A stretch of 64,000 nucleotides of DNA from Planococcus plakortidis (GTDB taxonomy: Bacteria > Bacillota > Bacilli > Bacillales_A > Planococcaceae): assembly GCF_001687605.2 (NCBI RefSeq), contig NZ_CP016539.2:3130501-3194500 (forward strand), given 5' to 3'. A program made the position numbers and the translations under genes. The first letter of the stretch is position 1; each line of letters opens with the position of its first letter. The notes beneath the pieces are model-generated. The model saw only the letters and a program-made list of their open reading frames with translations. It made no database searches and was not told the origin of the DNA. Positions 236-49,984 of this stretch are shown here, one piece after another.

Positions 236-724
236 TTAACACAGCTCCTTTGCGTATTCGTTTGCGATCATTCGGCGTTCTTTTCGTTCCTGTGCGTTGT
301 CAAATAATCGTTTTTCATTTTCCGTTTCCGGCACCACGCTCGCGACTGGCGTTGGGCGCCCTTCTGCATCCACTGCGACCATCGTCAAGATCGAAGTGGT
401 CGTTAAGCTGCGCGTGCCGCTTTCGATGTGCTGGCATTCTGCTTTGACGTATACTTCCATCGATGTCCGGCCCGTCGAAATGACAACGCCTTCCAAGATC
501 AAGATATCGCCGACTTTTGCCGAGGACAGGAAATTGACGTTGTCGATCGATGCGGTCACGACTGCGCGCCGGCTATGCTTCATTGCCGAGATGGCGGCGA
601 TCTCGTCGATATACGCGAGGACGGTGCCCCCGAAAATCGTGCCCATATGGTTGGTGTCCGGCGGCAAGACAAGCCGGGACTGGATCGTCCTGGATACGCC
701 GGCCGGAAGTTGTTCTCTGTGCAT
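236..724 (-). CDS. Acyl-CoA thioesterase, YkhA-type hot-dog fold
   Basis: A 162-residue single hot-dog-domain hydrolase expected to cleave fatty acyl-CoA to free acid and CoA in the cytosol. The motif NHMGTIFGG followed by YIDEIAAISA (residues 25-46) is the catalytic Asn/Asp signature of the YciA/YkhA family, and the length matches the family. The ATG at 724 follows GGAGG with a 7-nt gap. It is the first gene behind a cobalamin riboswitch and its terminator, and the last codon is 2 nt from a ribonucleotide reductase start. That partner is unusual for a thioesterase. The acyl chain preference cannot be read from sequence. Confidence 0.88.
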   Translation of the reverse strand: MHREQLPAGVSRTIQSRLVLPPDTNHMGTIFGGTVLAYIDEIAAISAMKHSRRAVVTASIDNVNFLSSAKVGDILILEGVVISTGRTSMEVYVKAECQHIESGTRSLTTTSILTMVAVDAEGRPTPVASVVPETENEKRLFDNAQERKERRMIANEYAKELC

Positions 725-1025: not shown

Positions 1026-1281
1026 TGCGGTATCACTATATATGGTGTTGAATTTTTACATCATCACCAAATCTTGTAGTTTCACTATAGACCAGTTCGA
1101 ATTTCGCCGCAAGGATTTTCTCGTACTTCCTGTAGAAAGTGAAAAAGGGTCTAGTCGCTGGCTTGTTTTTCGTATAAAACTTTCAATTTGTAGTTATTTT
1201 TTGATACAAGGTTTTCAAATTTTCTGTTTCAGCGAAGACAGCGAGAACTTGCTTGTGAAATCGTTCCTGTGCTCTAGTTAT

Positions 1282-1466
1282 GCATCATCTTTGTAGTCGC
1301 CAGCCTGCTTTGGGTTGGCCTTTAGCAATAAGCCAAGAAGGGCGCTTGTCTTATTGCGTCGGCTCACCCTTGTCGCTGGCTGGCTAATACATTTCATAGA
1401 TTCGTGTGTGTTCAATTAGATCTGCTTCTCTAAGGAGTTGCCGGCTAGTGGGGGAATCGCTTCCTA
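1282..1466. repeat. Structured intergenic repeat, copy A
   Basis: About 185 nt, homologous along its length to 7038-7224. Three nested helices are visible: outer GCCAGCC (1299-1305) with GGCTGGC (1378-1384); middle GGGTTGGCC (1312-1320) with GGCTCACCC (1361-1369); inner GCAATAAG (1325-1332) with CTTATTGC (1350-1357). A 3' module ends in a GGAA-TCGC-TTCC mini-hairpin. Compared with copy B the outer and inner helices carry compensatory base changes, so RNA structure appears to be selected. The transcribed strand is unknown, and no known RNA family was recognised. Confidence 0.75.
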
Positions 1467-1590
1467 AGGCGTGCATCGGTAAGGTAGATAGTATTTAGTT
1501 CGGGAGCTCGTTTGTGCTTCACGTTGGTTTTCAATACCTCGCTTTAGCACAGCCCATAGCAAAATCCCCACCGCTTTCCACTGCCATTTC

Positions 1591-6890: not shown

Positions 6891-6929
6891 CCTGCGCATT
6901 TTTATTTTCGGTTGTTCATATTTTTGCCA

Positions 6930-6962
6930 AAAAAAGAAAGCCTGCGGATGAGCAGGCTTTTG
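6930..6962 (-). terminator. Intergenic terminator hairpin
   Basis: Stem AAAGCCTGC/GCAGGCTTT with loop GGATGA, followed on the minus strand by CTTTTTTT. There is no coding gene directly upstream on that strand; what it would end is the structured repeat region 7038-7224. Confidence 0.65.
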
Positions 6963-7037
6963 GAAGTTGCTATTGGTTGGAATGAATGGCGGAGATAGCG
7001 GGGGTTAGGGTGTGGCATTGTTTCCTGTTCTATTGGA

Positions 7038-7224
7038 GCATCATGTTGTTAGTCGCCGCCGTGCTCTGGGTTGGCCTCTTGCAGTAAGCCATGAAAAGCA
7101 CCTGTCTTACTGCTTCGGCTCACCCCTTTACGCTCGGCGGCTTGGAGATTTCGCTGATTCGAGTGTGTTTCATCAGATTTACTTCTATATGCAGTTGCAG
7201 GCTAGTGTGGGAATCGCTTCCTTA
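7038..7224. repeat. Structured intergenic repeat, copy B
   Basis: Second copy of the element at 1282-1466. Helices: GCCGCCG (7055-7061) with CGGCGGC (7135-7141); GGGTTGGCC (7068-7076) with GGCTCACCC (7117-7125); GCAGTAAG (7081-7088) with CTTACTGC (7106-7113). The 3' module GGCTAGTGTGGGAATCGCTTCCT is also kept. A terminator lies 76 nt away in the minus direction (6930-6962), so a minus-strand transcript is possible. No protein frame is conserved between the copies. Confidence 0.75.
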
Positions 7225-7394
7225 GATGAAACATCTGGGCCATAGGTGCTTGAGTAGAAATTTTGTTGATGAACATATATGATGCTTGCACGCTCTTTAA
7301 TGAAAATGACTTAAGCTGAAAAGATGACACATTTCTAATTTTCTATTGAGTGGACAAAAGAAGTTATTTTCTCCTTTAAAACTAGAGACGAAGT

Positions 7395-7510
7395 GTAAGG
7401 GGCCGACTCCGGGAGGAATAGCGAGACAATTGAGACCCTGCAGGAGCGTAGCGACGAAGCGGCTCAATGCGAGCCCTCCGGAAAGCGTGCCCCTGCAACG
7501 CAGTCGAAAA
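7395..7510 (+). repeat. GC-rich palindromic intergenic repeat
   Basis: Contains GGCCGACTCCGGGAGGAA, GAGACCCTGCAGGAGCG, AGCGACGAAGCGGCTCAA and GCCCTCCGGAAAGCGTGCCC, the typical order of the Bacillaceae GC-rich intergenic repeat. The flank TTTAAAACTAGAGACG resembles the left flank of the degenerate copy at 45060-45245, so these two form a subfamily. Confidence 0.65.
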
Positions 7511-7605
7511 GTGGAAGCTTTTCCTTTCACGGCTCTTTTGGTTTCAGTTGCATCCCCCTCTGTACCACACTTTTAAGGAGTAAAAGCTGATATTACCAGA
7601 GCATA

Positions 7606-7634
7606 CAAAAAGCCTGCCGTTACGGCAGGCTTTG
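7606..7634 (-). terminator. fnr terminator
   Basis: Hairpin AAAGCCTGCC-GTAAC-GGCAGGCTTTTTGTATG on the minus strand, immediately after the fnr stop. Confidence 0.85.
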
Positions 7635-7637
7635 CAA

Positions 7638-8333
7638 TCAGTCGATTTTACAAAGGTAAATCGGGCATTCTTCGCAATTGATGTCGAATTTCAGTTTGGG
7701 GATATTGTATAGAACGATCTTGCCGTCTTGCATGCCGACGGTTCCTTGTTTGCGCAAGTCGCTGAGCATCCGGTTGACCATTTCACGGCTCATGCCGCAG
7801 AAATTCGCCAGCTCCTGGTTCGTCAGCACGACATCGATCAATAAGCCGCCGTCCGCTTGGATGCCATAACTGTTGCCGAGGCGGATCAACGTCGAATACA
7901 AGGCTCCCTTTTTGCCATGGAGCATCAAATCCCGGAAACGCGTCTGCGTTTTCTGTTGGTCGATGCCCATCCATTTCATGAACGCCATCGCAAGCCCTGG
8001 GTCTTTTTCAAGCGATTGTTCCAGCTCTTCCACAGGGATTTTCAAGCAGACAGTGTTCGTCAAGGCCCGGGCATCCAGCAAATATGTGGCTCCTTCTGCG
8101 AATACCGTGATCTCGCCGACCATCTGCCCCGTGCCGCAAATCTTCAACGCAAGCTCGCGGCCATCCGGCGTGACTTTTCCGATTTGCACTTTCCCCGAAC
8201 GGAGGATATAAAGGCCTTTTACCGCCTCCCCTTCGCGGAACAGATAATCGCCTTTCTGATATTCTTTTACTTGATGGCTGATCGTCAAGAGCTTTTCGAG
8301 CTCCGCCGCCAATTTATCGAAGCCTGCTTCCAT
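7638..8333 (-). CDS. fnr: Fnr, oxygen-sensing Crp/Fnr-family regulator
   Basis: A 231-residue regulator: cyclic-nucleotide-type beta roll (residues ~15-130), dimer helix, winged helix-turn-helix (LTNQELANFCGMSREMVNRML) and a C-terminal cluster Cys220, Cys223, Cys228 (CEECPIYLCKID). The C-terminal cysteines are the hallmark of Bacillus-type Fnr, which binds a [4Fe-4S] cluster there. The ATG at 8333 is chosen since GGGAGG lies 8 nt upstream. A perfect TGTGA-N6-TCACA site occurs in front of the nearby oxidase operon, a probable target. Monocistronic. Confidence 0.92.
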   Translation of the reverse strand: MEAGFDKLAAELEKLLTISHQVKEYQKGDYLFREGEAVKGLYILRSGKVQIGKVTPDGRELALKICGTGQMVGEITVFAEGATYLLDARALTNTVCLKIPVEELEQSLEKDPGLAMAFMKWMGIDQQKTQTRFRDLMLHGKKGALYSTLIRLGNSYGIQADGGLLIDVVLTNQELANFCGMSREMVNRMLSDLRKQGTVGMQDGKIVLYNIPKLKFDINCEECPIYLCKID

Positions 8334-11870: not shown

Positions 11871-12707
11871 CTATTTCGACCCGTACAACTGCTCGAGCTC
11901 TTCTTCTTTCATCGTGAAACGATGCTGTTCTTTCGGGAACGCGCCGCTCTTCACTTCTTCCACGTACTGGGCGAGCCCTTGTTGCATCGTCTCGCCTGCT
12001 TCTGCGTAGGACTGGACGAATTTCGGCAAATGGTGCGAACCGTATTTGACGGTGTCGTGGTAGACGAGCACTTGGCCATCGGTTTCGCTGCCTGCGCCGA
12101 TGCCGATGACCGGGATGTTAAGTTCTTTCGCGACTTGTGCCGCCAGTTGATGCGGGATGCATTCGAGCACGAGCATGCAGGCGCCTGCCGCTTCGCACGC
12201 TTTGGCGTCTTCGATCAATTGCTTGGCGGCGCTGGCGGTTTTGCCTTGCACTTTATAGCCGCCGAGCACAGCGGCTGATTGCGGCAATAAACCAAGATGG
12301 GCGACGACCGGGATGCCGCTGGCGACGAGCTTGCGTGTCACCTCGAGCACTTCCCCTGCACCTTCGAGTTTCAAGGCTTGCGCACTCGTTTCCTGGAAGA
12401 TGCGCATGGCGTTTTCGAGCGTGCGGTCCCAGCTGCCGTGGAACGAGCCGAACGGCATATCGACGACGAGGAAGGTGTCCTGTGCCCCTCTTCTTGCCGC
12501 TTTTCCATGATGGATCATGTCTTCGACGGTCACCTTGACGGTTGAATCGTAGCCGAGCACGACCATGCCGAGCGAATCGCCGACAAGCAGCACATCCATC
12601 CCCGCCGCTTCCGCGATTTTGGCGGACGGGTAATCGTAGACCGTCAGCATCGCGATCTTGTCCCCTTGCTGTTTCATCTTGATCAATGAAGCTGTATTTT
12701 CCATCAT
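11871..12707 (-). CDS. panB: Ketopantoate hydroxymethyltransferase
   Basis: A 278-residue enzyme that transfers a hydroxymethyl group from 5,10-methylene-THF to alpha-ketoisovalerate, the first committed step of pantothenate synthesis. Recognisable segments are [47 protein letters not shown] and [20 protein letters not shown]. Full family length. panC and panD are not adjacent, since the downstream neighbour is convergent, so panB stands alone here. Expression is probably controlled by the leader with a pan RNA motif and terminator at 12735-12875. Confidence 0.95.
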
Positions 12708-12765: not shown

Positions 12766-12843
12766 AGAATTGGATTTTGTCGGTTTCTCCGTCCCTGTCG
12801 TTTTTCAGATCAAGGCAGATCTATTAAGTTGTTAAGCTTTCTT

Positions 12844-12875
12844 ACAGGTGCAGTTCCGGATGGATACCGCCCTGT
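12844..12875 (-). ncRNA. pan RNA motif in the panB leader
   Basis: Minus-strand ACAGG-GCGGT-A-TCC-ATCC-GGA-ACTGC-A-CCTGT: one stem-loop with two bulged adenosines, matching the described pan motif, which is found upstream of pantothenate genes. It lies about 140 nt before panB, ahead of an attenuator. The ligand of the motif is not established. Confidence 0.75.
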
Positions 12876-44990: not shown

Positions 44991-45059
44991 ATAACTATTT
45001 GGATAACGGTCGACTGGAGTATCCATTTTATATCCTACTTTTAGAAAGCGATGCAACAA

Positions 45060-45245
45060 CTTCCCACTCTTAAACTAGAGACGGAGCGAAAATGGCTGAC
45101 TCCTGGGGGACCGTGCAAATGAATAAGTGAAGTGGATTTGAGATTACATTTGCAACATTGATCGGGCCATTCCCGGGCAGCTGAAAACGCGATGTCCTGT
45201 CGCATCAGCTGCATGACTCGCATCCTGCGAGCCCAAGGCAACCAT
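45060..45245 (+). repeat. Degenerate GC-rich intergenic repeat
   Basis: CTTAAACTAGAGACGGAGCG and GGCTGACTCCTGGGGGA resemble the start of the copy at 7380-7410, after which similarity fades; TCCTGCGAGCCC near the end recalls the repeat 3' part. No gene is seen between 44990 and 45308. Confidence 0.45.
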
Positions 45246-49867: not shown

Positions 49868-49984
49868 AATAAAACACCCCGCATAAATGCGGGGTGTATC
49901 GATAGCTGCGGCGTGTCAGGCCACGCTCCACAACGTGTTCCACGAAGGAATGCCTGTCCGTCTTATGCAGCTTAGCTCATCGCG
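49868..49984 (-). ncRNA. Candidate small RNA with own promoter and terminator
   Basis: About 117 nt on the minus strand. Predicted start near 49984, 7 nt after a TATGGT -10. The body folds into a closing stem AGCTGC/GCAGCT, an inner stem CAGGC/GCCTG, and two hairpins, TTCC-TTCGT-GGAA and CACG-TTGTGGAG-CGTG; it ends with terminator ACACCCCGCAT/ATGCGGGGTGT then TTTTATT. No frame with a ribosome site exists. It was not recognised as 6S, RoxS, FsrA or SR1. Neighbours are on the other strand. Confidence 0.72.
49870..49897 (-). terminator. Terminator of the candidate small RNA
   Basis: 11-bp perfect stem ACACCCCGCAT/ATGCGGGGTGT with a TT loop, then TTTTATT on the minus strand. Confidence 0.9.

Follow-up and report, generated by a model that had tools for sequence, protein, structure and literature searches.

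Copies A (positions 1282-1466) and B (7038-7224) of the window, the whole 64-kb stretch of DNA analysed, are two members of a repeat family spread over the whole genome, which the two-copy view had missed. Comparative evidence identifies this Planococcaceae family as interspersed, non-coding, MITE-like repeats whose fold is under selection. Its conserved heart, as deduced from the alignments, is a three-helix hairpin of about 87 nt, closed by a 7-nt loop and interrupted at two internal sites by fixed mismatches.

A modular repeat family

The sequence-only reading had placed A and B at these coordinates and aligned them over their length, and both points were confirmed: BLAST of the window's own genome with A as the query recovered B at E 3.7e-36 with 78% identity. 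The same search returned 47 matches, tandem arrays among them. A profile search around these matches resolved 34 full-length cores in 21 arrays of one to four head-to-tail units, with a period of about 246 bp. Partial and variant copies are also present in this genome, together with a second subfamily that has the hairpin in different flanking sequence.

In the window's clade, a head of about 62 bp precedes a core of about 184 bp, and head plus core form the repeating part; a tail and then an R module follow the last unit of the array. Across 109 arrays from 11 genomes, the unit number was one in 39, two in 46, three in 15, four in 7 and five in 2. The R module has a variable interior, which in some composites contains a Bacillaceae-1 RNA (4 matches over 8 own-genome loci).

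Unit B lies on the minus strand, with its head at 6976-7037 (kept in the 30-copy alignment; approximate limits by eye) and its core at 7038-7224 (nhmmer match 7038-7221). The core contains the main three-tiered hairpin at 7055-7141, assigned from columns 19-105 of the alignment A2 and their covariation, and a small GGGGA/TTCCY hairpin at 7208-7222 that is placed on the plus strand on the same basis as its counterpart in A. The tail and R module of B occupy 7224-7528 (minus strand; profile match E 5.1e-80), and their consensus fold features conserved stems and a terminal hairpin, AAAAG-loop-CTTTT. Past the head, at 6937-6960 on the minus strand, lies an intrinsic-terminator-like hairpin.

Unit A has the same order, with a head at 1220-1281 (minus strand; upstream of the core, kept in the same alignment, limits again approximate and by eye) and a core at 1282-1466 (nhmmer match 1282-1464), for which the minus strand is the one favoured for the main hairpin. 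The latter spans 1299-1384 (minus strand, from wobble pairs; A2 columns 19-105, with covariation), and the small GGGGA/TTCCY hairpin spans 1451-1465, its own wobble pairs favouring the plus strand. Decayed remains of a further unit, read by eye, lie beside A at 1467-1560 (minus strand), and the tail and R search gave no match in this region. A coreless relative was found at 45025-45231 (plus strand) between two converging genes, and combines a tail/R part (45025-45116) with a Bacillaceae-1 RNA (45169-45231).

Other arrangements were observed elsewhere. Four loci of other Planococcus species (L048, L226, L239, L242) carry tandem arrays that consist of hairpins alone and repeat about every 145 bp; T-box leaders lie near L226 and L239. 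A second genus has inverted pairs, in which two hairpins face opposite ways at a distance of about 200 bp (L234/L247, L236/L249).

Covariation of the main hairpin

The differences between A and B had been described as preserving base pairing, and the 30 aligned copies bear this out: A2 columns 47-75 are A-T in 14 and C-G in 14 (2 unpaired), and columns 56-66 are G-C in 17 and A-T in 11. The arms GGGTTGGCC/GGCTCACCC, previously noted as invariant, are kept among the aligned copies, as is the GGAA-TCGC-TTCC hairpin of the 3′ part. One-base indels between copies at A2 columns 15, 87, and 150 argue against a shared protein frame, in line with the earlier statement that none exists.

Single-sequence folding was mildly better than shuffles (z of -1.97, with 9/200 as good, and -1.74, with 11/200); the case for the fold thus rests on comparison and not on energy. 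Among 35 sequences, 16 of the 27 pairs changed on both sides, giving 107 cells versus 34 in shuffles, a value reached by 0/500 shuffles. In another set, 77 distinct sequences drawn from a second genus and from the other Planococcus species, 22/27 pairs changed on both sides, with 261 cells versus 69, and again 0/500 shuffles reached this level. The alignment of this set had been fitted to the model and retained three weak matches on the opposite strand. Slid structures showed far lower covariation in both sets. The main hairpin thus displays covariation beyond shuffles, one of the marks by which a structured RNA was judged here. The original proposal of a structured element is upheld by this covariation together with compensatory changes at fixed orthologous sites, described below.

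Three internal positions are mismatched or non-canonical and fixed in 202-212 of 213 cores: pair 36-85 is T/C in 206, pair 37-84 is G/T in 212, and pair 53-69 is C/T in 202.

Strand of the element

The intermediates of the main hairpin, read on the plus strand, comprise 193 A.C versus 83 G.U cells. Counted by site-pairs, 109 are minus-type versus 63 (p 0.0006), and 95 versus 63 when the strongest pair is removed (p 0.013). The minus type is also ahead between orthologs (51 versus 26), and outgroup sequences, with the three weak opposite-strand matches left out, show 44 G.U versus 14 A.C on the minus strand. The pairs of the R module's main stem agree with this strand. The main hairpin is therefore likely to belong to the minus strand, opposite to the strand read. 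The small 3′ hairpin of the core displays 118 G.U versus 13 A.C cells on the plus strand (first three pairs, columns 173-175), and the terminal R hairpin presents a GNRA loop on the plus strand in 33 of 35 readable composites (10/45 unreadable). The element as a whole appears to give mixed strand signals, with the main hairpin on the minus strand and the two small hairpins on the plus strand.

It is plausible that the element acts as RNA rather than DNA; a single-stranded DNA form would yield the same wobble asymmetry. REP/BIME elements are recognised by gyrase, Pol I or RAYT, and the hairpin could similarly be a DNA structure, extruded as a hairpin or cruciform from a single strand or a supercoiled duplex and recognised by a host protein or a transposase. 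We regard this as rather unlikely. The mixed strand signals suit it, as do the inverted neighbouring hairpins of the second genus, whereas duplex DNA should show no strand asymmetry, even if one single strand would, and a plain palindrome would not usually keep fixed mismatches in its interior.

Fixed sites and selection in place

The 109 arrays fall into about 28 sites, 22 of them occupied in at least two genomes; the grouping can merge sites, since two groups contain a pair of arrays from a single genome. Species of the window's clade share these sites and differ in unit number. Site B adjoins a Crp-type (crp/fnr-type) regulator gene, and 30 loci were read from the 41 genomes carrying this gene. 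Each of the 13 complete loci whose identity is 89% or more carries the core; a fourteenth locus (G068) stops at a contig edge with the tail end visible, and 16 more distant loci have neither core nor tail. The number of full units at this site is one or two.

From 107 nearest orthologous unit pairs, 56 independent pairs were retained, each unit being used once. They contain 39 double-changed cells versus 5.8 expected under independent change of the two sides: 36 went from Watson-Crick to Watson-Crick, 2 were kept with wobble and 1 was broken. Cells are paired in 93% of cases versus 78% in within-site shuffles, and orthologs differ by 0.062 at paired positions and 0.116 at other core positions. 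At site B, across 12 genomes, divergence is 0.112 for the hairpin and 0.127 for the core versus 0.318 at the four-fold sites of the neighbouring gene, in a comparison of best-matching units that favours low values. These results show that the fold is still selected at the fixed sites of the window's clade.

Exchange of paralogous units could mimic both in-place compensation and low divergence. For the 173 units in multi-unit arrays, the nearest relative was at the same site of another genome in 76 cases, within the same array in 55 and at another site in 42 (38 + 4). This last class suits exchange or repeated insertion, as would be expected of a selfish repeat devoid of host function, in which pairing is kept for the element's own transposition or restored by quasi-palindrome template switching, copy exchange then spreading the paired variants. 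The inverted-repeat form and the empty site seen in outgroups, described below, fit such a repeat as well. Quasi-palindrome repair, however, should also erase the internal mismatches, yet these are fixed, and it yields no wobble bias; moreover, at a site common to the clade, the core has diverged less than synonymous positions. We consider this explanation improbable.

Gene context

Genes were called by a simple codon-usage script. Of the 109 arrays, 107 are flanked by genes at both ends, and in 90 of these 107 the gene next to R is oriented towards the element; 31 lie between converging genes, 76 between genes in line and none between diverging genes, in counts that are not independent, the same sites recurring across genomes. 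In the window's own genome, the R-side gene points at the element in 19 of 21 arrays. For the 56 arrays with an intact R module and a pointing gene, the gap measures 39-176 nt in 49, and a terminator-like hairpin of the gap lies within 160 nt in 44/56 versus 0/56 after shuffling. This post-terminator position suggests that the element is put to use in the window's clade. The intergenic, multi-copy and arrayed occurrence, with 0/107 between diverging genes, would also suit the DNA structure discussed above.

In other Planococcus species, the upstream gene points at the hairpin in 17/37 loci and 5/37 lie between diverging genes (3 of 40 loci have no gene on one side, and some loci repeat a place). 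Because these species show no orientation bias, a role at the 3′ end of genes cannot be general. In the second genus, the upstream gene points at the hairpin in 9/9 loci.

By eye, the R-side genes show no obvious common theme, and cis-regulation of one pathway was rejected on this ground. No sigma-70-type promoter above shuffles was found on either strand in 45 composites and the A and B regions. This result is compatible with a DNA structure and speaks against a third alternative, in which the arrays produce a trans-acting multi-copy small RNA or a protein sponge, like tandem small RNA genes. The conserved loop and mismatches would agree with such a product, as would tandem units whose number differs between species, but 2 to at least 90 copies per genome is high for a small RNA, and the copies of the clade keep their positions after terminators. 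This alternative thus appears very improbable.

Inverted-repeat ends and mobility

The family is described as MITE-like because outgroup hairpins sit in 17-bp inverted-repeat elements and because one empty site was found. A 17-bp inverted repeat is often found about 17 nt from the hairpin in outgroup Planococcus, with its second copy 105-440 bp off at the opposite end; the ends of these elements carry TATATAAGTTGAACTAA. The exact 17-bp repeat was detected in 22/46 genomes, versus 0 for the reversed control; it is present in one genome of the window's clade (G067) and absent from the window's own genome. Of 30 inverted-repeat loci fetched, 11 have the hairpin inside, and about one quarter of 40 outgroup hairpin loci show the repeat within 3 mismatches. 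The occupied site is in G022, where the space between two genes is taken up by the element; in relatives the site is empty in 21/21 readable loci, the genes being a few tens of bases apart (one locus unreadable). A TA target fits many element ends, not all. No autonomous partner, sought as an exact inverted pair about 1-2 kb apart, was found among the exact-repeat matches.

The suggestion of a mobile remnant consequently holds for the family, through these outgroup copies and the empty site, which a DNA structure acted on by a transposase would also accommodate. For an RNA-guided element, the other possibility raised at the outset, we found no evidence: the copies of the window's own genome had no nuclease or transposase gene next to them, and elsewhere the search was for PF01797 only.

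RAYT (PF01797) was detected in 29/46 genomes. Hairpins are more numerous in the 28 genomes with a full match than in the remaining 18 (Mann-Whitney p 0.014, uncorrected for kinship), and the six genomes with at most 5 hairpins all have no full RAYT (Fisher p 0.002, uncorrected for kinship). As the direct mover, RAYT was rejected: 13 RAYT loci of the genus are not flanked by the hairpin (one weak match, best E 0.15), which also counts against a REP-like DNA structure, and the own-genome RAYT is flanked, by eye, by other short repeats. This RAYT-type transposase gene (L098, 8220-8864) is accompanied by short repeats around CCTGTGTTGCACACAATT that form a separate REP family in this genome.

Distribution

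A model search detected the hairpin in 46/46 Planococcus genomes, from 2 to at least 90 each; the high counts are lower bounds, scoring having been capped at 90 candidates. Across the family it was found in 96/261 genomes and 5/19 genera. In a class sample of 299 genomes, 13 were positive, all in the window's own family (8 Planococcus, 5 another genus), and 0/271 sampled genomes outside the family carried it; the family and class searches used stricter filters with few candidates scored, so that they may have overlooked distant members. An exact 33-base hairpin pattern matched 15 stretches among 84,980 genomes, all Planococcus. The covariance-type search of family genomes proposed in the sequence-only reading returned homologs, and these covary.

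Carriage by plasmids was rejected. Among plasmids, a single good match was obtained, to a 7,049-bp linear record of Planococcus sp. MB-3u-03 (NZ_CP025126.1, L301) with three units. This record looks like an assembly fragment because it has chromosomal-type genes and groups with chromosomal sites. A search of phages for the element gave no match.

Other RNAs in the window

Three known RNAs were observed on the minus strand. A Cobalamin riboswitch (RF00174, 129.6 bits) at 861-1038 lies directly upstream of a 4HBT-type thioesterase gene (236-724, minus strand), an unusual partner for it; no other long open reading frame was seen on the minus strand in the gap. A BsrF small RNA (RF01411) at 49874-49983 scores above the gathering threshold, and a pan motif (RF01749) at 12785-12873 lies upstream of a gene (11871-12707) that resembles panB by eye.

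Proposed explanation

We tentatively favour, as the best explanation overall, a MITE-derived repeat that in the window's clade has become a structured post-terminator RNA module. The ancestral form would have been a short non-autonomous element with terminal inverted repeats of about 17-25 bp that inserted between genes, TA being its probable target. In the window's clade, it would then have been fixed after gene terminators and have gained the tail and R modules, and change would now proceed by gain and loss of tandem units. The main hairpin would act in RNA that arises when transcription reads through the terminator of the upstream gene (at B, on the minus strand), and the module may block, trim or stabilise this read-through RNA, thereby separating neighbouring genes. 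Several results weigh against this explanation: the strand signals conflict, neither strand has a sigma-70-type promoter above shuffles, orientation is unbiased in other Planococcus species, exchange of paralogous units could mimic the signs of selection, and the R-side genes share no evident theme. A more specific version has a transposon-derived structured RNA domesticated in one Planococcus clade, where it would serve after terminators at over 20 fixed chromosomal sites; its tandem hairpins in read-through RNA would be recognised by a putative dedicated RNA-binding protein or nuclease, and the unit number per site would tune the effect. In this full form we hold it to be rather unlikely.

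Intergenic repeats are mostly treated as debris. Since the same unit exists both at fixed sites and as an inverted-repeat element in sister species, selection for the host versus the element itself, and RNA versus DNA, are directly testable here, and Planococcus species devoid of an array at a given site offer natural controls.

Comparison with known systems

The earlier statement that the core belongs to no known family stands: it has no Rfam match at gathering thresholds or at E-values up to 10. Over the core and tail of A, B and 18 further loci, nothing reached the gathering score apart from the nested RF01690 in R. A group II intron fragment was rejected, none being among 13 Rfam matches up to E 10 over 6900-7650, and a T-box or CRISPR origin is unsupported. 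A search of literature titles and abstracts, with subscription journals mostly outside its scope, returned no description of the element. There is a 190-bp Bacillus subtilis repeat, for which a literature search gave nothing useful. Bacillaceae-1 RNA (RF01690) is a nested part of R in some composites and not the core hairpin; this unexplained RNA is now placed inside a larger repeat module, and RF01690 may be part of a larger repeat.

The element is a new family of MITE-like structured repeats, bcr1 and MRSC being compared by description only. The BCR repeats of the Bacillus cereus group are intergenic, of 100-400 bp, in tens of copies, lineage-restricted and endowed with mobile-element traits (PMC6542083), and bcr1 is classed as a structured repeat family (PMC2267715). 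The Planococcus element shares with them this size range, its intergenic position, tens of copies, lineage restriction and mobile-element traits (PMC6542083). Unlike bcr1, it belongs to another host family, Planococcus and not the Bacillus cereus group, and, by description, is set apart by a hairpin that covaries, by tandem arrays, by its location after terminators in the clade and by inverted repeats at the element ends in outgroups.

REP/BIME elements are clustered high-copy extragenic palindromes in which complementary changes are preserved and which have been suggested to be non-autonomous elements (PMC2817692). The Planococcus element resembles this description in being high-copy, extragenic and clustered, with complementary changes (PMC2817692), but its hairpin is about three times longer, the foot of the hairpin has a varying flank and no fixed GTAG/GTGG-type tetranucleotide, the clade arrays run in the same direction, and RAYT is not flanked by the hairpin.

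MRSC-65-2 (NAR 2024), a mobile/repeat sequence candidate, is described as a long covarying stem in dozens of copies, whose RNA or DNA form is undecided, and as a single stem with a UYCCGG repeat in diverse phyla (PMC11109978). The long covarying stem and the dozens of copies are common to that motif, so described, and to the Planococcus element (PMC11109978), whereas the Planococcus hairpin has three tiers and was found in one family only.
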